DNA from: Hyphomicrobium methylovorum
Lineage (GTDB): Bacteria; Pseudomonadota; Alphaproteobacteria; Rhizobiales; Hyphomicrobiaceae
DNA length: 64,000 bases
Assembly (NCBI RefSeq): GCF_013626205.1
Contig: NZ_QHJE01000001.1
Span: forward strand, 2,894,501-2,958,500
Direction of reading: 5' to 3'
Shown here: positions 27,966 to 37,309 of the stretch, one piece after another
How the letters are laid out: each line of letters begins with the position of its first letter
How positions within the stretch are numbered: position 1 is the first letter of the stretch
Made by a program: the position numbers and the translations under genes
Notes under the pieces: model-generated
Databases searched by the model: none
What the model saw: the letters and a program-made list of their open reading frames with translations, nothing else
What the model was told of the DNA's origin: nothing

Positions 27966-29006
27966 ATGTTCGGTTTGGGCGTCAGAGCCGTATTGTCCGA
28001 CAACATCGCCATCGATCTCGGCACAGCTAACACCCTCGTTTTCGTCGAAGGACGCGGCGTCATTATTGACGAGCCGTCGGTCGTTGCTATCCGTTCGCGC
28101 GGCGGCGTGCGCGAGGTCATGGCGGTTGGCGACAAGGCTAAGGAGATGCTTGGCCGGACGCCGGAAAACATCGAAACGATCCGGCCGTTGCGAGATGGCG
28201 TGGTGGCGGACTTCGTGGCAACGGAAGAAATGCTGCGGCAGTTCATCGGGCGAACGAAGTCGCTCGTCGAGTTTGTGCGGCCGCGTATCCTCGTTTGCGT
28301 TCCAGCGGGCGCAACTCCGGTTGAGCGGCGTGCGGTTTATGAGACAGCGCTGTCAGCCGGTGCGCGGCGTGTTTTTCTGGTTGAAGAACCGGTCGCGGCC
28401 GCGATTGGCGCTGGGCTTCCCATCGATGAACCGAAGGGATCGATGATCGTCGACATCGGCGGTGGCACAACGGATATTGCGGTGTTGTCGCTCGGCGGTG
28501 TGGTCGAGGCGCGCTCGCTCCGTTGCGGTGGAAACGCGATGGACGCGGCGATTGTGCGCTATGTCCGCCGCGAGCATCAGCTTGTGATTGGTGACGAGAA
28601 CGCGGAGCGGATCAAAATCGAAGCGGGTTCGGCGTCTCGCATCGTTGATGGTGAGACAGCGGAAATTTTCATTCGTGGGCGCGAGCTCGGCGAGGGCAAA
28701 CCGAAGACGGTGGTGCTCGGGCCGCATCACATCGCGGAGGCGCTTGCTCAGCCTATCGAGCAGATCGCGGAATTCATCCAGCATGCGATCGAGGATCTGC
28801 CGCCGGAGATTTCGACGGACGTTTGTGAGCGGGGCATCCATTTGTCGGGTGCCGGCGCCAAGTTGGCCAAGCTCGGTGAGGAACTTGAGCGTCGCATCGG
28901 CATCACCTGTCATATGCCGCAGAAGCCTGAGCATTGCGTTATTGAGGGCTCTGCGGTTCTGTTGCGCACGCTCAAGGAGCGCGAGCATCTTTTGATCAAG
29001 CCCTGA
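27966..29006 (+). CDS. mreB: Rod shape-determining protein MreB
   Basis: A 346-residue bacterial actin. IAIDLGTANTLVFV is phosphate loop 1, MIVDIGGGTTDIAVLSLGG phosphate loop 2, and GIHLSGAGAKLAKL the adenosine-binding region. It forms filaments under the inner membrane that organise the elongation machinery. ATG 27966 gives the usual MreB N-terminus MFGLGVRAVLSDN. It is the first gene of the five-gene mre-mrdA-rodA operon. Polar-growing Rhizobiales often lack MreB, so its presence is informative about growth mode. Confidence 0.96.
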   Translation: MFGLGVRAVLSDNIAIDLGTANTLVFVEGRGVIIDEPSVVAIRSRGGVREVMAVGDKAKEMLGRTPENIETIRPLRDGVVADFVATEEMLRQFIGRTKSLVEFVRPRILVCVPAGATPVERRAVYETALSAGARRVFLVEEPVAAAIGAGLPIDEPKGSMIVDIGGGTTDIAVLSLGGVVEARSLRCGGNAMDAAIVRYVRREHQLVIGDENAERIKIEAGSASRIVDGETAEIFIRGRELGEGKPKTVVLGPHHIAEALAQPIEQIAEFIQHAIEDLPPEISTDVCERGIHLSGAGAKLAKLGEELERRIGITCHMPQKPEHCVIEGSAVLLRTLKEREHLLIKP

Positions 29007-29021
29007 TCGCGGACAACCGGC

Positions 29022-29960
29022 ATGGCGCGCCTCAGGTATGACTATCTTCTTCTTCGGCGGGGCGATCGCGCCGAGCCGCGGCGGGCTGTTCGCCCGATCG
29101 TCGCGTTGTTGATTTTCCTGTCTCTGTCCCTGCTGCTGTTGAGCCGCCTGCATCACAGTCAAATCGCGGATCTGCGCTGGCGCGTCGCTTCCTTTTTCGC
29201 ACCTCTGCTGCAAGCGGCGACTGTGCCGACCGCGCCCATTCGCGAATTCGCCGGGGCGATTTCCTCGCAGATTGATATGACCGCCGAACTCGAACGCCTT
29301 CGGACTGAAAATCAGAAGCTAAGTGGTTGGGATTGGCGAGCTCAGCAACTCGAAGCCAAGCTTGCCGATCTCGAAGCTCAGATGAAGGTTGTTCCGCAGC
29401 AAGGGTTCGAGTTCGTGACGAGCCGTGTGATCGCCGATTCGAGCGGCGCGTTCGCGCGCAGCGTGATGATCGATTCCGGTGAGAAGCAGCGCGTGAAGCC
29501 GGGCTACCCAGTGGTGAATGCCGACGGGCTGGTTGGGCGGGTGGTGGATGTTGGCCCGAACTCCGCACGTGTATTGATTGCGAGCGATCTCAACAGCCGT
29601 ATCCCCGTCAGCGTTGGCGCATCTGGTGTGCGCGCTATTCTTGCGGGTGACAACGAGCCCGAGCCGCGTTTGCTGTATCTGCCGGAAGGCGCCGAGGTTC
29701 GCGTTGGTGACGCGGTTGGGACATCGGGCATCGGCGGGCTGTTTCCCGCCGGACTAAGGATTGGTGTCGTCAGTGATATCGCGGGCACGCCGCGCGTTGC
29801 GCTGAGGGCGCATCTCGATCGTCTCGCGTATGTCAGCGTGCTTTTGTTTGACGACCCTGCGCGTGCGCTCGCGGAGGATTTGCGTGGCGAAGTGAAAGCC
29901 GAACAGGAGCGTCGCCCGAAGCCTTCTGCGAACAACGCCGCGACGGAGAAAGTGCGATGA
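29022..29960 (+). CDS. mreC: Rod shape-determining protein MreC
   Basis: A 312-residue periplasmic scaffold with one N-terminal membrane helix (VALLIFLSLSLLLLSRL), a coiled coil (LERLRTENQKLSGW, LEAKLADLEAQMKV), and the double beta-barrel domain (VIADSSGAFARSVMIDSGEKQ, then GYPVVNADGLVGRVVDVGPNSARV). It links MreB to PBP2 and RodA and can activate PBP2. It follows mreB by 15 bases and overlaps mreD by an ATGA junction. Confidence 0.95.
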   Translation: MARLRYDYLLLRRGDRAEPRRAVRPIVALLIFLSLSLLLLSRLHHSQIADLRWRVASFFAPLLQAATVPTAPIREFAGAISSQIDMTAELERLRTENQKLSGWDWRAQQLEAKLADLEAQMKVVPQQGFEFVTSRVIADSSGAFARSVMIDSGEKQRVKPGYPVVNADGLVGRVVDVGPNSARVLIASDLNSRIPVSVGASGVRAILAGDNEPEPRLLYLPEGAEVRVGDAVGTSGIGGLFPAGLRIGVVSDIAGTPRVALRAHLDRLAYVSVLLFDDPARALAEDLRGEVKAEQERRPKPSANNAATEKVR

Positions 29961-30472
29961 CGTGGCGGCGGCTCGTGGCGCCGATCGGCTCGGTGGCGGT
30001 CTTGACGCTGATTGCGGCTTTGCCGCTTGGAATCCCGGCGGGCGATCGATTTTTCCTCCCGCTGCTACCTGCCGTTGCCATTCACTACTGGACGCTGAGG
30101 CATGATGCCTGGCTTCCGGAATGGGTTGTTTTTCTTGCCGGGCTGACGCTCGACGTTTTGACCAACGGTCCGCTCGGCTATTGGGCGTTGATCTATCTGC
30201 TGGTGCATCTGGCTGCGACGGTAAGCACGCGCTATGCGCTGGGCGGGACATTCAGCCGGCTCATTCTTCTCGGGCTTGCTATTCTGTCCGTCACTGTCGT
30301 CGCGTGGGCCGTGGCGTCGCTGTATTTCTTTGAGTTTCTCGATTGGCGGCCGTACGCGACCGGAGCGCTGCTCGCCAGTATTGCGTCGCTTTTTGTGCTG
30401 TTACCGATCTTGAGATTTCTCGACAACGCTGCCGCGCGCGATCGCAACGTGCGTCTCGAGCGCGGGAGCTAG
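29957..30472 (+). CDS. mreD: Rod shape-determining protein MreD
   Basis: A 171-residue inner-membrane protein with about five helices. The segment WVVFLAGLTLDVLTNGPLGYWALIYLLVH is typical of MreD, as are the small size and the position between mreC and mrdA. The ATG overlaps the mreC stop by four bases (ATGA), so the two are translationally coupled. It is a membrane partner of MreC; its precise job is not settled. Confidence 0.92.
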   Translation: MTWRRLVAPIGSVAVLTLIAALPLGIPAGDRFFLPLLPAVAIHYWTLRHDAWLPEWVVFLAGLTLDVLTNGPLGYWALIYLLVHLAATVSTRYALGGTFSRLILLGLAILSVTVVAWAVASLYFFEFLDWRPYATGALLASIASLFVLLPILRFLDNAAARDRNVRLERGS

Positions 30473-30475
30473 CGC

Positions 30476-32344
30476 ATGATGACGCGCGGCGAGACGCGAA
30501 GCTCAGATCAAACGCGATTTACGCGCCGTAGTCTTTTGTTTGGTGGCGTGCAGGCTGCGGGATTTGCGCTGATCGGATGGCGGCTCTTCCAGTTACAGGT
30601 GATCGAGCGCGACCGGTATGGGCCGCTTGCGGACGAAAACCGCATCAACGTGCTGATCCTGCCCCCGCGCCGGGGACGCCTGTTGGATCGGTTCGGCCGC
30701 CCCATTGCCGATAACGAAGATCTTTTCCGCGCGACGGTTACACCGGCGTTGGTCAAGAATTTGCCTGCCGTTCTCGCGCGTCTGAAAGAGATCCTGCCGC
30801 TGACGGATGAAGGCATCGCGACCATCATTGCGCGTTCGAAGAAGCGTGCGCGGAACGTGCCGACAGTCGTCGCATCGGATCTCAGCTTTGAGCAGATCGC
30901 GCGTCTCAATCTCTTTGCGCCGAGCCTGCCGGGTGTTGGCACGGAAACATCGTGGCGCCGACGCTATCATGGCGCGGATGCGATTTCGCACGTCGCCGGA
31001 TTTGTCGGCAGTGTCGAGAAGTTCGATCCGAATGACGATGCAATCCTGCGGCTGCCGGATATGCGCATTGGCAAGAAGGGCGCGGAGGCGGGGTTCGAGT
31101 CTGAGCTGCGAGGGGCGGGCGGAACGGCGAAAATCGAAGTCGATGCGCGTGGGCATATCATGCGCCACCTCGAAACGTCCGAACCGAAGAACGGGCGCGA
31201 CGTGCGTTTGTCGATCGATCTCGATTTGCAGCAAGCGATTGCGGCGCGTATGGCGCAGGACGGGAAATCGGCCGCAGTCGTTATCGATGTCGGAACGGGC
31301 GAGATCGCTGCGTCCGTCTCAGTGCCGGGGTTTGATCCGGGGCGGATTGCGAATGGCATTCGCGCGTCCGAGTGGCGCGAGATCCGCGACGGCGAGGGGA
31401 ACCCGCTGCTCAACCGCGTCGTGTCGGCTCTCTATTCGCCTGGCGGGACATTCGAACCTGTTACGGCGCTGGCCGCACTTCAGGCTGGCGTCGTTACGCC
31501 GACGGAGCGTTTCAAATGTACAGGTCACGCCGATTATGATGGACGGCGATACGTGTGTTCGCGCGCCTCAGGGCACGGGGCGTTGACTGTTTCCGAAGCG
31601 CTGCGATCGTCGTGCGATCTATTCTTTCTCGAAATGGCCCGGCGTGCGGGTGTCGATGCGCTTGCCGCCGCAGCGCGCAAACTTGGCCTCGGTGCCGTTT
31701 ACGAGTTCGGTTTGACAGACGAAAAGGCTGGGCGAATTCTCGCCAAGAACACGATGCCTATTCAACCCGGCGAGCAGGGCGCGCGTGAAACGGCGCTGCT
31801 GCTCGGCATGGGGCGCGGCTCTGTTTTGGCCACGCCTCTGCAACTTGCGTTGATGACCGCACGGATTGCGAGCGGAAATAATGTTTTTCCTTCGATCCGA
31901 TCCGAGTCAGAGCCTCGAAGCGGCAGTCGTGCTCCGTTCCCGTTCTCGGTTGAGCATCTCTCGATCGTTCGGGCTGGAATGATTGCGGCGGGCACTGCTG
32001 CTGGTGGTACAGCGCTCGGCGTTCAGCTCGGGAAAGGCCGGCCGCTCGTTGCTGCAAAGACCGGTGAGACGGCGACCGAAACAGCGGAGTCTGGCGCGAG
32101 TTCAGTGGGTGCTGAAGCACGGCGAACCGACGCGCCATTCGTTGCGTTCGTTCCCGCGGAGTCGCCACGGTATGCCATCGCTACGGTCGTTGAACGCGTT
32201 GGCGGCGCGCAAGAAAGCGCAATGTTGTTGGCTCGCGATGTTCTGAATCTGCTTCTTGACCGCAACGCGCGTATCCAGACGAACACCGATCCGTTGCAAC
32301 GGAACGATGCGAAAGATCGCGGCAACTCGGGAACGGCAGGCTAG
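30476..32344 (+). CDS. mrdA: PBP2-like elongasome protein, predicted inactive transpeptidase
   Basis: A 622-residue class B penicillin-binding protein of the PBP2 type. An N-terminal membrane helix is followed by the pedestal domain (LPPRRGRLLDRFGRPIADNE, HVAGFVGSVEKFDPND) and the transpeptidase domain. The active-site SxxK tetrad, normally PGSTFKP, reads PGGTFEP here: Gly324 in place of Ser and Glu327 in place of Lys. The second motif SCD (residues 379-381) and KTG (528-530) remain. Without Ser and Lys it should not acylate, so it is likely a structural activator of RodA. The frame is intact and the gene lies in its normal operon, so decay by drift alone seems unlikely. Confidence 0.9.
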   Translation: MMTRGETRSSDQTRFTRRSLLFGGVQAAGFALIGWRLFQLQVIERDRYGPLADENRINVLILPPRRGRLLDRFGRPIADNEDLFRATVTPALVKNLPAVLARLKEILPLTDEGIATIIARSKKRARNVPTVVASDLSFEQIARLNLFAPSLPGVGTETSWRRRYHGADAISHVAGFVGSVEKFDPNDDAILRLPDMRIGKKGAEAGFESELRGAGGTAKIEVDARGHIMRHLETSEPKNGRDVRLSIDLDLQQAIAARMAQDGKSAAVVIDVGTGEIAASVSVPGFDPGRIANGIRASEWREIRDGEGNPLLNRVVSALYSPGGTFEPVTALAALQAGVVTPTERFKCTGHADYDGRRYVCSRASGHGALTVSEALRSSCDLFFLEMARRAGVDALAAAARKLGLGAVYEFGLTDEKAGRILAKNTMPIQPGEQGARETALLLGMGRGSVLATPLQLALMTARIASGNNVFPSIRSESEPRSGSRAPFPFSVEHLSIVRAGMIAAGTAAGGTALGVQLGKGRPLVAAKTGETATETAESGASSVGAEARRTDAPFVAFVPAESPRYAIATVVERVGGAQESAMLLARDVLNLLLDRNARIQTNTDPLQRNDAKDRGNSGTAG

Positions 32345-33493
32345 ATGGCGCTTTACACAGCATGGTCGAACCGGCGTCCGCTGACGGTCAGCGAAAAACT
32401 CTGGCGCGTGCACTGGCCACTGCTCGCAATCGTTTCTTTGATCGCGGCCGTTGGCGTGGTTACGCTTTACTCGGTCGCGGGTGGTTCGTTTCAACCGTGG
32501 TCAGAGCGTCATGCGCTGCGATTTCTGATCGCGTTTGGAATCGTCGTCGGAATGGCGCTGATCCGGCTCGACGTTTGGGTGAAGCTTGCTTATCCCGCGT
32601 ATGCCATCGCACTCGTCACGCTCGTGCTCGTTCCGCTCATCGGGGTCGAGGCGATGGGCGCGCGGCGTTGGATCGGAGCGGGTTCGATTTCATTTCAGCC
32701 GTCGGAGTTCATGAAGCTCGCGCTGGTGGCAGCGTTGGCGCGCTATTATCTCTGGCTGCCGCGCGAAGATGTGGGGAAGTTGCGCTACGTTCTCGTGCCG
32801 CTCGTAATGGTCGCGGTGCCGGTCGTGCTAACACTCAAGCAGCCAGACCTCGGTTCGGCGATGGTGTTTCTCGCGCTCGGTCTGGCGCTGACGTTCCTTG
32901 CGGGCGTTCCAATGCGCTACTTCGTTGGCGGCGCGCTGACCGCGTTGGCGGCCCTGCCTCTCATCTGGTCTGGCCTGCACGATTATCAGCGTCGTCGCGT
33001 CGAGGTGTTTCTGGATCCGAACGCTGATCCTCTTGGCGCCGGTTATCACATCATGCAATCCAAGATCGCACTTGGTGCTGGCGGGATCACCGGAAAGGGC
33101 TTCGTGCAGGGTACGCAAAGCCAGCTCGATTTCCTTCCCGAGAAGCACACCGATTTCATCGCAGGGATCATCGGCGAGGAATGGGGGTTTGCCGGATTGA
33201 TGCTTCTTCTCATTCTTTACGTGGCATTGATTGCGACGATGATGCGGATGGCGGGAAGGTGCGAAAACCCGTTCGCCCGGCTCGCGATTGCCGGTTCGGC
33301 GATGACGTTCTTCATTTACGTTTTCATCAATCTTGCGATGGTGACCGGGCTTGTTCCGGTCGTCGGCATCCCATTGCCGCTCGTTTCCTATGGCGGGACG
33401 TCCATGATGACGCTGATGGTCGGCCTTGGGCTCGCGATGTCGGCCTACGTGCACGGGCGCGACCGGCCAGCGGCGAGTTTTGGCGCATTTTGA
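32345..33493 (+). CDS. rodA: SEDS peptidoglycan polymerase RodA
   Basis: A 382-residue SEDS protein with about ten membrane helices. GARRWIGAGSISFQPSEFMKLALV and FLPEKHTDFIAGIIGEEWGF are diagnostic; the latter holds the essential periplasmic Asp (Asp270), so polymerase activity should be intact. VPVVGIPLPLVSYGGTSMM near the C-terminus is typical. RodA polymerises glycan strands in lateral growth with PBP2. The ATG directly follows the mrdA stop codon with no spacer, so the two are coupled. It ends the operon. Confidence 0.95.
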   Translation: MALYTAWSNRRPLTVSEKLWRVHWPLLAIVSLIAAVGVVTLYSVAGGSFQPWSERHALRFLIAFGIVVGMALIRLDVWVKLAYPAYAIALVTLVLVPLIGVEAMGARRWIGAGSISFQPSEFMKLALVAALARYYLWLPREDVGKLRYVLVPLVMVAVPVVLTLKQPDLGSAMVFLALGLALTFLAGVPMRYFVGGALTALAALPLIWSGLHDYQRRRVEVFLDPNADPLGAGYHIMQSKIALGAGGITGKGFVQGTQSQLDFLPEKHTDFIAGIIGEEWGFAGLMLLLILYVALIATMMRMAGRCENPFARLAIAGSAMTFFIYVFINLAMVTGLVPVVGIPLPLVSYGGTSMMTLMVGLGLAMSAYVHGRDRPAASFGAF

Positions 33494-33655: not shown

Positions 33656-33731
<76 letters not shown>

Positions 33732-33816
33732 AACAAATCAATGACTTATACAAATCCGGCGATCGTAGAATCTTGAACGGGTGCGAACCCGGTGCGATCC
33801 GGTTTCGGCTGAGACA

Positions 33817-33865
33817 TTAGATTTTCAATCTGAAAAGACGGGTTCGACTCCCATAGGGAGCGCCA
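33817..33865 (+). pseudogene. 3' half of a tRNA (Glu-type anticodon TTC)
   Basis: The spacing of a tRNA 3' half is kept exactly: a 17-base anticodon arm (stem TTAGA/TCTGA, loop TTTTCAA, anticodon TTC), a 4-base variable loop, a T arm with TTCGACT and one mismatched pair, a 7-base acceptor strand AGGGAGC, discriminator G and CCA. The matching 5' acceptor strand GCTCCCT and the D arm are not present upstream. It is therefore a fragment, most likely an attachment remnant of another element, not a working tRNA. Confidence 0.6.
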
Positions 33866-33911
33866 GGACTCTCAACAACTTAAGCCCTAATTTTTTCTGC
33901 CGCAACGCGGC

Positions 33912-34565
33912 GTGCAACAGAATTGCAACCGCCAGGTCGCCGCAGTAAAGGCCCTGCTCGGGTTCGCGCATCAGGTCGGATACACCCGCTTCAACGTCGG
34001 ACCGCTTCTCAAGCTCAAGAAGGCACCTAGGAAGCTCGCACAGCGGATTATGCCGGAAGTCGAAATTCATCTTCTCATCCGCGCCACGGCTGGCTCTCGC
34101 CATCCACAGCGCGATAGGGCCCTGTTCGAGACGGGATACTACGGCGGACTGCGCGTTTCGGAACTTGCGAGCCTAACTTGGGATGAGATCATTCCACGCG
34201 AGAACGGGGAGGCGCAGCTCGCGCTCATCGGCAAAGGCGATAAGCCGCGCCATGTTCTCTTGCCCGCCGACATTGCCGCGCGATTGACGGCGCTCCGATG
34301 TGGCGCTTCGCCCAAGGCGAGCGTCTTCGGGATCAAGGAGCGCGAGATCAATTATCTAATCAAGCGGACGGCAAAGCGCGCTGGGGTGAACGAAGCAGCG
34401 TCCGCCCACTGGTTTCGCCATGCGCATGCAAGTCATGCGATCGACAATGGTGCGCCGATCACGCTCGTTTCGCAGACGCTCGGGCACGCGGACCTCAAGA
34501 CCACGAGCGTTTATACGCACGCGCGGCCGAACGAGAGTTCGAGCCGATTTTTGAAGAAAAGATGA
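33912..34565 (+). CDS. Tyrosine recombinase (island integrase), N-terminally short
   Basis: A 217-residue XerC/phage-type integrase. The catalytic set is present: Arg in GGLRVSELASLTW, Lys in IGKGDKPRHVLL, HWFRHAHASH for the His-x-x-Arg pair, the later His in LGHADLKTTSVYTH and the Tyr nucleophile in VYTH. Only a partial core-binding domain precedes it (VKALLGFAHQVGYT); family members are usually about 300 residues, so the N-terminus seems lost. The start is a GTG without a clear ribosome site. It could still be active if the start is misplaced, but no upstream frame restores the missing part. Confidence 0.85.
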   Translation: MQQNCNRQVAAVKALLGFAHQVGYTRFNVGPLLKLKKAPRKLAQRIMPEVEIHLLIRATAGSRHPQRDRALFETGYYGGLRVSELASLTWDEIIPRENGEAQLALIGKGDKPRHVLLPADIAARLTALRCGASPKASVFGIKEREINYLIKRTAKRAGVNEAASAHWFRHAHASHAIDNGAPITLVSQTLGHADLKTTSVYTHARPNESSSRFLKKR

Positions 34566-35200: not shown

Positions 35201-37309
35201 CTATCTCATGAGATCCGACATGAACTGTGAGCCCGGCTTAACGCCGCTCACCATCAGCCGATCGCGGGCTCGGGTGCAGGCGACGTAGAAGAGCTGGCGC
35301 TCTGTGTCGAACACATCGTCCAGCTCGGTCTCGTCGGCGACGGCCTCGAGACGGGCCTTAAGAGGCAGGACATCATCGTCACACGCCATCACTGCGACTA
35401 CCTTAAACTCGAGGCCCTTGGCGAGATGCATGACGCCGATGCGCACGGTGCCAACGCCGCCAATCCGATGCAACGTGATCTCGCTTACGTCGCGCCCAGT
35501 CGCATTGACTGCCGCGCGGGCGCGGCTCATCACTTCGCGGGTACGCACGAACACGCCGATCTCCTCCGGCAAGACGCCGTCGGCCAGTGCGGCGTCAATG
35601 AACTTCGCAACGGCTGTCTGCTCGGCAGCTGCGTCGGCCGCCGCAACTACGATCGGCACGGGTCCGTTGAATACCGACACCGTGCCTTTGCGTTCTTCGT
35701 CGCGACCATCGACATCAACGACGGCGCCGGGCAGCAAGCGGTCTGCAGTTTCGCGGATCTGATGCGAGGTTCGGTAGTTGACTTTCAGGGTTGTCGACCG
35801 GCCGGTGACGTTCACGCCGAGCGCCTTCCACGAGAACGGCTGCTGGAAGATACGCTGACCGAGGTCCCCGGCGAAGAACAAGGCATCTGTGCCGGCTGGC
35901 GCGATCGCAATCAGGAAGCGCAGTTCCGGTACGCCAAGATCTTGAGCTTCATCGACCACGATATGGTGAAACGGCTTCTCCGCCTTCGCCGCATAATGAT
36001 CGGTTACAGACTGGAATACGCCAGCTTCGGTCACAAAACCGCGAGCGTTCAACTCGTGGATCACATGTGCGAACACGGGCCAGAGCCTGTCACGCTGCTT
36101 CTTGCCCATGCGATTTTTACGGCCGAGCCGGGGTACGTCCGCGTAGCCTTCGGCAGATTTGAGCTGCCAAGCGTCCACCACGTGCTTCCACTCCGAGAGC
36201 AGAAACCGCTCGTTGATCGGAGGTCCTGGCTCGGCGGCTGCCGCCTTAGTCAACAGGCCGTGGACTAGATCTTCGGATGCGATCTGTGGACTGCGCCCGT
36301 GCACGAGCTGGTAAAGATCGCGCGCGATACCGACGAACGACGCGACGGTAATGCGCGGCACGACGGAGCCAGCGTCACCCGCGAGTACCTTGACTTTACG
36401 TTCAAGTGACGCGGCAAGGGGCTCGGAAAATGTCGTGAGGAGAACGCGCGTACGGTCATTGCTGGCGGCAAGGCGGGCTGCGCGATGAACCGCTACGACT
36501 GTCTTGCCCGTCCCGGCGGAGCCCGCGACGCGGGCTGGACCCGAGAAAGTCCGTGTTACAAATGCGCGTTGAGACGGGTGGAGGAAGATGGCCCACTGCT
36601 CCCATGGCAGCTCTAGCGCACGCTCCAGCTCCTCGACGTTCTCGATGACACGGAAGCGGCGCTGTGCGTCGGGGTGCGCGAAGGGATCAGTGACGACGAC
36701 CGGCTCGGGCTTCTTTAGGATGCCGCTGGATGCGTACTCGAGCAGCGCTTCACCGGCTTCGGCGGGTAGATGCGGAGCGAGATCGAGGAAGCCGTCCTCG
36801 GTGGCGGCCGTGACGTCGGTTAGCCAATCCGGCGGTACGCCGATCGACAGAAGGTCGTCGGGAGCTAGTGCCGCGAATAGTTTGCGGACAGCGAGTGGCG
36901 GTGCGATCGGCAGCGTGGTGATGTCGTCGCCGAGGTCGAATGGAAGTTGCGTCGCGCGGCGCTTGGCGATCTCTTCGACGCGCTCTCGGACCTCAACGAT
37001 TTGAACGGCGCCCGTCCTCGGATGGGCCTCGATCCGACGGCGCTCGGCCCAGGCGTACGCTTGATCGTGATGATCCACATAGGCGAGCAGGAAACTCGAC
37101 GCGGTCTTGTGGATGATGATCCGGATGTCGCGGTTAACTCGGCAGGACCAGAAGTTCGGGTCCTTAGATGCGTCGATCCGATGCAGCTGAAGGCCAGTGG
37201 ACTCAGGGTTCGTCTGCAGATCGAACACCGAGGCCTTTACGGCCTTCTGCTCATCGCGACTGAGACGAGTTAGGGACTTGGTAAAACTGTCGGCGATGCG
37301 GAATTCCAC
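35201..37309 (-). CDS. UvrD-type helicase with RelE/ParE-like N-terminal domain
   Basis: A 702-residue protein. Residues 1-95 look like a RelE/ParE-fold domain: FRIADSFTKSLTRLSRDEQK, FWSCRVNRDIRIIIH and YVDHHDQAYAWAERR. From about 240 it is a superfamily 1A helicase: Walker A GSAGTGKT (263-270), Walker B VVDEAQD (451-457), and late motifs LKVNYRTSHQIRETA and TLHRIGGVGTVRIGVMHLAKGLEFKVV. The GTG start lies one base after the methyltransferase stop codon, so it is the last gene of the Res-Mod operon. The first domain could bind RNA or DNA, or be a fused toxin; no separate antitoxin is visible. Confidence 0.85.
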   Translation of the reverse strand: MEFRIADSFTKSLTRLSRDEQKAVKASVFDLQTNPESTGLQLHRIDASKDPNFWSCRVNRDIRIIIHKTASSFLLAYVDHHDQAYAWAERRRIEAHPRTGAVQIVEVRERVEEIAKRRATQLPFDLGDDITTLPIAPPLAVRKLFAALAPDDLLSIGVPPDWLTDVTAATEDGFLDLAPHLPAEAGEALLEYASSGILKKPEPVVVTDPFAHPDAQRRFRVIENVEELERALELPWEQWAIFLHPSQRAFVTRTFSGPARVAGSAGTGKTVVAVHRAARLAASNDRTRVLLTTFSEPLAASLERKVKVLAGDAGSVVPRITVASFVGIARDLYQLVHGRSPQIASEDLVHGLLTKAAAAEPGPPINERFLLSEWKHVVDAWQLKSAEGYADVPRLGRKNRMGKKQRDRLWPVFAHVIHELNARGFVTEAGVFQSVTDHYAAKAEKPFHHIVVDEAQDLGVPELRFLIAIAPAGTDALFFAGDLGQRIFQQPFSWKALGVNVTGRSTTLKVNYRTSHQIRETADRLLPGAVVDVDGRDEERKGTVSVFNGPVPIVVAAADAAAEQTAVAKFIDAALADGVLPEEIGVFVRTREVMSRARAAVNATGRDVSEITLHRIGGVGTVRIGVMHLAKGLEFKVVAVMACDDDVLPLKARLEAVADETELDDVFDTERQLFYVACTRARDRLMVSGVKPGSQFMSDLMR

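Follow-up and report, generated by a model that had tools for sequence, protein, structure and literature searches.

PBP2 (MrdA) is the partner of the SEDS polymerase RodA in the Rod complex. In E. coli, RodA-PBP2 fusions polymerise glycan in the presence of mecillinam and the PBP2(L61R) variant increases RodA polymerisation, according to PMC6207328. The same paper describes the pedestal of H. pylori PBP2 as bound by MreC, and RodA polymerisation without PBP2 cross-linking as toxic to E. coli through a futile cycle. For B. subtilis it is reported that inactivated PBP2b is still required, presumably for FtsW activation (PMC12713402). In Rhizobiales, the loss of pbp2, mreB, mreCD and rodA has been placed at one node (PMC12130487), and Hyphomicrobium or its whole order has been stated to lack MreB and the elongasome (PMC4460556, PMC10259793).

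Here we describe an mre operon of Hyphomicrobium methylovorum, found in a stretch of 64,000 nucleotides (the window, meaning the whole stretch analysed), in which pbp2 sits between mreD and rodA and encodes a protein that lacks both the Ser and the Lys of the SxxK motif.

The window PBP2 and its active site

The codons at nucleotides 31433-31459 (TAT TCG CCT GGC GGG ACA TTC GAA CCT) translate to YSPGGTFEP, starting at Y320. The preliminary description had read PGGTFEP here, with Gly324 and Glu327 in place of the acylated Ser and its Lys, and the codons, read in an intact frame, confirm this loss of the two residues. An active D,D-transpeptidase requires the Ser and Lys of SxxK, for which the window PBP2 has GGTFE; judged by its sequence, the protein would be without transpeptidase activity. 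Every Ser codon differs from GGG at two or more bases, and one read error would therefore not suffice to produce Gly324. The relatives, together with the open frames, rule out sequencing error or a pseudogene as the source of the variant. The claim of an intact frame in a full operon holds as well: the 622-residue frame is open, and mreB, mreC, mreD, pbp2 and rodA stand in a row (Table 1).

Table 1. Positions in the window of the mre operon genes and of the domains and motifs of PBP2
Feature	Position	Strand	Remarks
mreB	27966..29006	+	MreB_Mbl E=3e-123 (domain given from second codon); start assigned by comparison with relatives
mreC	29022..29960	+	PF04085 E=4.7e-34
mreD	29957..30472	+	PF04093 E=8.1e-5, 23.2 bits, slightly below curated cut-off 24; equal place in relatives
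mrdA/pbp2, class B PBP lacking the SxxK Ser and Lys	30476..32344	+	uninterrupted 622-residue frame
Pedestal (PBP_dimer) domain, residues 63-231	30662..31168	+	domain match
Transpeptidase domain, residues 266-582	31271..32221	+	domain match
Gly324 codon GGG, in the position of the nucleophilic Ser	31445..31447	+	
Glu327 codon GAA, in the position of the SxxK Lys	31454..31456	+	
Span of Cys348, Cys361, His367, Cys380 (mapped zinc ligands)	31517..31615	+	alignment and motif spacing
SCD (SxN/D motif), S379-D381, present	31610..31618	+	
KTG motif, K528-G530, present; next residue Glu, not Thr	32057..32065	+	
rodA, SEDS polymerase	32345..33493	+	catalytic Asp270 codon 33152-33154

The SCD and KTG motifs had been described as remaining. 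Both are indeed present in the window PBP2, but KTG is followed by Glu, versus Thr in 53 of 54 other PBP2s, and the motifs are eroded in the clade to which the protein belongs. Both the PBP_dimer and the Transpeptidase domain were matched, after an N-terminal helix that the predicted model places at residues 9-43. The predicted fold (mean pLDDT 79.8) has E. coli PBP2 6g9p as its top structural match, with a TM score of 0.75 by query and 0.86 by target. Cys348, Cys361, His367 and Cys380 map onto the zinc ligands described for A. baumannii PBP2 (PMC9974482). At 476.5 bits, the protein exceeds the cut-off of 455 of the NCBIfam equivalog TIGR03423 (PBP2/MrdA), so this model would give it the plain name PBP2, and annotation by it would carry no hint of the lost site.

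The adjoining RodA retains Asp270, as had been noted. This catalytic Asp, the counterpart of the Asp262 reported as essential in E. coli RodA (PMC10449877), is kept in 14/14 genus genomes with RodA and in 43/43 of the wider set. Downstream of rodA lie a tRNA-Lys and, after it, a gene for a phage integrase (PF00589, E=2e-25); this region (33656-34565) is possibly an integrated island. A UvrD-type helicase is encoded on the minus strand at 35201-37309; Pfam gives its helicase and ATPase parts only, and its first ~90 residues appear RelE/ParE-like by eye.

Distribution of the SxxK change

The genus sample comprised 22 Hyphomicrobium genomes, the window genome (G000) included. An mre-type PBP2 was found in 14 of them, and mreB and rodA are present in the same 14, which qualifies the statements cited above that MreB and the elongasome are absent. 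Of the 14 PBP2s, 12 have lost the SxxK Lys and carry Leu (5), Val (5), Met (1) or Glu (1) instead; the live exceptions are G006 (STFK) and G009 (STVK). Ser is kept in ten of the 12 Lys-less proteins and is replaced by Gly in the window genome only and by Ala in G010. None of the 12 pbp2 frames contains a stop codon. The SCD motif reads SCE in ten of these proteins, and is SCD in the window PBP2 itself. KSG is a usual variant of KTG, and across the clade we observed KTG in four proteins (window, G017, G001 and G012), KSG in five, KAG in two and a broken motif in one. The last belongs to G010 (L018), which has the most eroded site by motif, with Ser replaced by Ala, Lys by Leu and KTG by GTV, in a frame that is open.

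The SxxK change is not private to the window protein and marks a clade of 12 genomes. The Lys-less PBP2s form one clade with a UFBoot value of 100 in a 43-taxon tree and again form one clade in a 65-taxon tree, whereas S..K is kept in 54/54 PBP2 rows outside it (2 of the genus and 52 from the family and order). Among 39 PBP2-like loci, mostly distant, S..K was read in 38, and one ends before the Ser. In the order-wide search at least 30 of 347 sampled genomes matched at E 1e-60, a count that is possibly too low because at most three candidates were scored per genome; genomes already in the sample were counted once in this set. The partial PBP2 of G108 was left out, as was a second fragment of G226, whose first fragment is among the 54 for S..K only. 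A scan of genome contigs with the window protein alone returned no relative, and relatives were found with alignment A2.

Since the 12 proteins fall into one clade, the most plausible reading is a single old loss of the Lys, with loss of the Ser and the other changes as later erosion. That two separate tips went on to lose the Ser, and that KTG eroded, suggests that catalysis is no longer under selection in the clade. The question raised in the preliminary description, whether Gly and Glu are fixed in a clade, thus has a divided answer: absence of the Lys is common to all 12 members, but Gly and Glu each occur in the window protein only.

Rod gene absence and constraint on the retained genes

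Neither an mre-type PBP2 nor RodA was found in eight of the 22 genus genomes, four of which have a high-scoring MreB. The eight include two incomplete genomes in which the absence of pbp2 is provisional, namely G004 (84% completeness, mreBCD present, contig ending inside mreD) and G005 (71% complete, contig ending near mreB). In G011 and G021 mreB lies behind leuA (L206 5718-6758 and L207 6993-8033, respectively). No mreC, mreD, pbp2 or rodA was found beside it in stretches of 12-14 kb (the genomes being 99% and 97% complete), mreC and mreD having been sought within the locus stretches, and no mre-type RodA or PBP2 was found in either genome. In a species tree built from 12 reading frames of the dcw region, the window genome groups with G004, G008 and G018 (UFBoot 98), and mreB, pbp2 and rodA are absent from G008 and G018, both of which are 100% complete. 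This tree is without G009, in which no dcw markers were found, and its UFBoot values are 41 at the node of two outgroups and 82 and 75 at the nodes around G006 and G011/G021. Live, dead and absent states of PBP2 are all present in the genus, and the tree suggests that they arose in that order.

Because two complete genomes of the sister group have neither pbp2 nor rodA, the main rival to a retained function is a slow dismantling. It would hold that the Rod complex is becoming dispensable in these budding bacteria, that PBP2 catalysis was lost by relaxed selection, and that the operon is in the course of being lost, PBP2 having no present role. The eight genomes without the pair, the additional lack of MreB in G008 and G018, and the solitary mreB of G011 and G021 all speak for it, as does a transpeptidase domain that is accelerated most strongly in the window tip. 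We nevertheless regard this explanation as unlikely, given how the individual parts of the operon have evolved.

We defined near-invariant positions as those conserved in 93% or more of the 54 outside PBP2s. On average over the 12 clade members, 96% of these positions are kept in residues 1-240 (n=30) and 78% from residue 241 on (n=76). The window PBP2 keeps 29/30 and 52/76, respectively, so the pedestal domain, which is also matched as PBP_dimer, remains as had been stated. Residue 362 is Ser in all 12 clade proteins versus Trp in 52 of the 54 others; Pro584 is absent in 12/12 and Pro321 in 11/12. Pairs within the clade have a mean identity of 0.755 over the pedestal and 0.646 over the transpeptidase domain, the latter being lower in 98% of 66 pairs; the corresponding values for 33 live rows are 0.472 and 0.544, with the transpeptidase domain lower in 6% of 528 pairs.

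As such pairs are not independent, branch lengths were fitted on fixed trees. The ratio of transpeptidase to pedestal branch length was 1.86 in the clade versus 0.81 in the rest of the 65-taxon tree, and 2.33 versus 1.06 in the 43-taxon tree that includes RodA. The ratio of RodA to pedestal in the latter was 0.59 versus 0.75, indicating that RodA is neither relaxed nor accelerated. Among 18 compared clades (4 to 30 tips, pedestal length >0.8), the 12 without a dead member had transpeptidase/pedestal ratios of 0.75-1.02. Over 41 tips the four highest ratios all belong to dead PBP2s, from 2.32 (window) to 1.83, and the next is 1.13.

The dN/dS ratios of seven close pairs, all taken from the dead clade and without the window gene or live-PBP2 pairs as a control, were 0.10-0.14 for the transpeptidase domain, 0.02-0.08 for RodA and 0.04-0.13 for the pedestal (six values). 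The deep pairs that involve the window gene were saturated or gave no value, with 0.125 for the pedestal at dS 2.2 and none for the transpeptidase domain. The estimated ratios show purifying selection on the clade pbp2 in these seven close pairs, of which the window gene is not a member. Selection is relaxed in the transpeptidase domain alone and yet continues there, as would be expected if the fold is still needed and the active site is not. The zinc ligands point the same way and are kept in all 12 clade proteins; outside the clade the CCHC set was read in 46 of 54 rows, with a gap at the His in six, other residues in one and a fragment in one.

Dismantling therefore has against it the 12 open frames, the low close-pair dN/dS in the transpeptidase domain (with mostly lower values in the pedestal and RodA), the complete zinc sites and an unaccelerated RodA. 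The accelerated transpeptidase domain and the sister lineages that lack pbp2 and rodA are also compatible with slow decay. The argument of the preliminary description against simple decay consequently stands in part: open frames, the operon and close-pair purifying selection uphold it, but the sister lineages without pbp2 and rodA weaken it.

Alternatively, the dead domain could serve as a sensor or brake that binds stem peptides or another PBP unreactively and thereby gates RodA. That the transpeptidase domain was kept rather than deleted, under purifying selection in close pairs, would agree with such a role. However, W362, D381, T531 and Q533 around the site are changed in 10 to 12 of the 12 proteins. 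This speaks against conservation of the former kind of ligand site, and we consider a sensor or brake improbable. It seems highly improbable that PBP2 still cross-links through a remodelled site in which another nucleophile or base has taken over. Ser is kept in 10/12, along with the predicted fold and the Ser of SxD/SxE, but the place of the Ser is taken by Gly in the window protein and Ala in G010, Glu, Leu, Val or Met stands for the Lys, G010 has a broken KTG, no common replacement residue was seen among the clade PBP2s, and Cys380 maps to a zinc ligand that is found in live PBP2s too.

A proposed role and its relation to known systems

It is probable that the non-catalytic PBP2 has been kept as a partner and activator of RodA while other enzymes form the cross-links. 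We propose that the ancestor of the Hyphomicrobium clade lost the SxxK Lys, so that PBP2 would no longer be acylated by a peptide stem or a beta-lactam, and that the window lineage later lost the Ser as well. PBP2 would owe its retention to a membrane helix, pedestal and fold that continue to bind MreC and RodA and keep RodA active. RodA would go on polymerising glycan, and the strands would be cross-linked by class A PBPs, L,D-transpeptidases or both. Binding of RodA by the dead PBP2, activation of RodA through this contact and cross-linking by another enzyme are what we infer from the retained parts. With somewhat less confidence, and at slightly better than even chances, we favour the broader reading of a polymerase-only Rod complex, in which a permanently non-catalytic PBP2 runs RodA, cross-linking takes place outside the pair, and the genus displays living stages of a passage from active to dead to lost.

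Other candidate cross-linking enzymes were also surveyed. The FtsI SxxK is kept in all 21 genus genomes read (all but G009). The window genome has six Transpeptidase-domain matches, namely FtsI, the mre PBP2 and four frames of 751-880 residues with PGSxxK, which by their length and motif are probably class A PBPs. A second, live PBP2 was sought in the window genome and not found, the PBP2 query matching only the mre PBP2 and FtsI. YkuD matches number 17 in the window genome and range from 9 to 18 across the 12 dead-PBP2 genomes (16 to 18 without G015, which is 85% complete); there are 23 and 14 in the live-PBP2 genomes G006 and G009, respectively, and 10 to 20 in the eight genomes lacking PBP2. 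Besides the mre-type PBP2, five Transpeptidase-domain matches occur in each of the 12 dead-PBP2 genomes. Seven of the eight PBP2-less genomes also have five, and G005, which is 71% complete, has four; of the live-PBP2 genomes, G006 has four and G009 five, of which two are partial. The YkuD and PBP counts of the dead-PBP2 genomes are about equal to those of other genus genomes, and no dedicated replacement cross-linker was seen in them. Counting other PBP2 and L,D-transpeptidase genes, a check proposed earlier, came out in two ways in the window genome, with no second PBP2 and with the 17 YkuD matches.

The proposal predicts elongation without a mecillinam target. Given the toxic futile cycle in E. 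coli, Hyphomicrobium would need another way to protect or cross-link the strands made by RodA, which raises the question of how these strands are cross-linked without such a cycle. In the work cited here, as far as its text was available, the service of a class B PBP to its SEDS polymerase apart from cross-linking is studied with engineered mutants and drugs (PMC6207328, PMC12713402). A clade from which catalysis has been removed and in which the protein is kept makes this question testable in nature. Among the literature matches listed, judged by title and the start of the abstract in a collection that covers few subscription journals and preprints, none deals with a PBP2 that is dead by nature or with the PBP2 of Hyphomicrobium.

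The closest described counterpart is PBP2/MrdA itself (TIGR03423), which the window protein resembles in operon place, N-terminal helix, pedestal, transpeptidase fold and zinc ligands, and from which it differs in lacking the SxxK Ser and Lys and in the faster evolution of its transpeptidase domain. In E. coli under mecillinam, as described in PMC6207328, RodA polymerises without PBP2 cross-linking, as proposed here; however, that state is imposed by a drug and toxic, whereas the Hyphomicrobium state would be a permanent one that the cell tolerates. Growth without PBP2 cross-linking is also known from Rhizobiales that have no Rod complex, according to PMC8546619 and PMC12130487, but there the genes are absent, and in the Hyphomicrobium clade they are kept. 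Inactivated B. subtilis PBP2b and C. difficile SpoVD S311A are reported in PMC12713402 as dead class B PBPs that still fill their role, presumably via the SEDS partner, much like the Hyphomicrobium PBP2. Those mutants are engineered, act in division or sporulation and are helped by a second class B PBP. In contrast, the Hyphomicrobium case is natural, clade-wide and concerns the elongation pair, and the search of the window genome gave no second PBP2.
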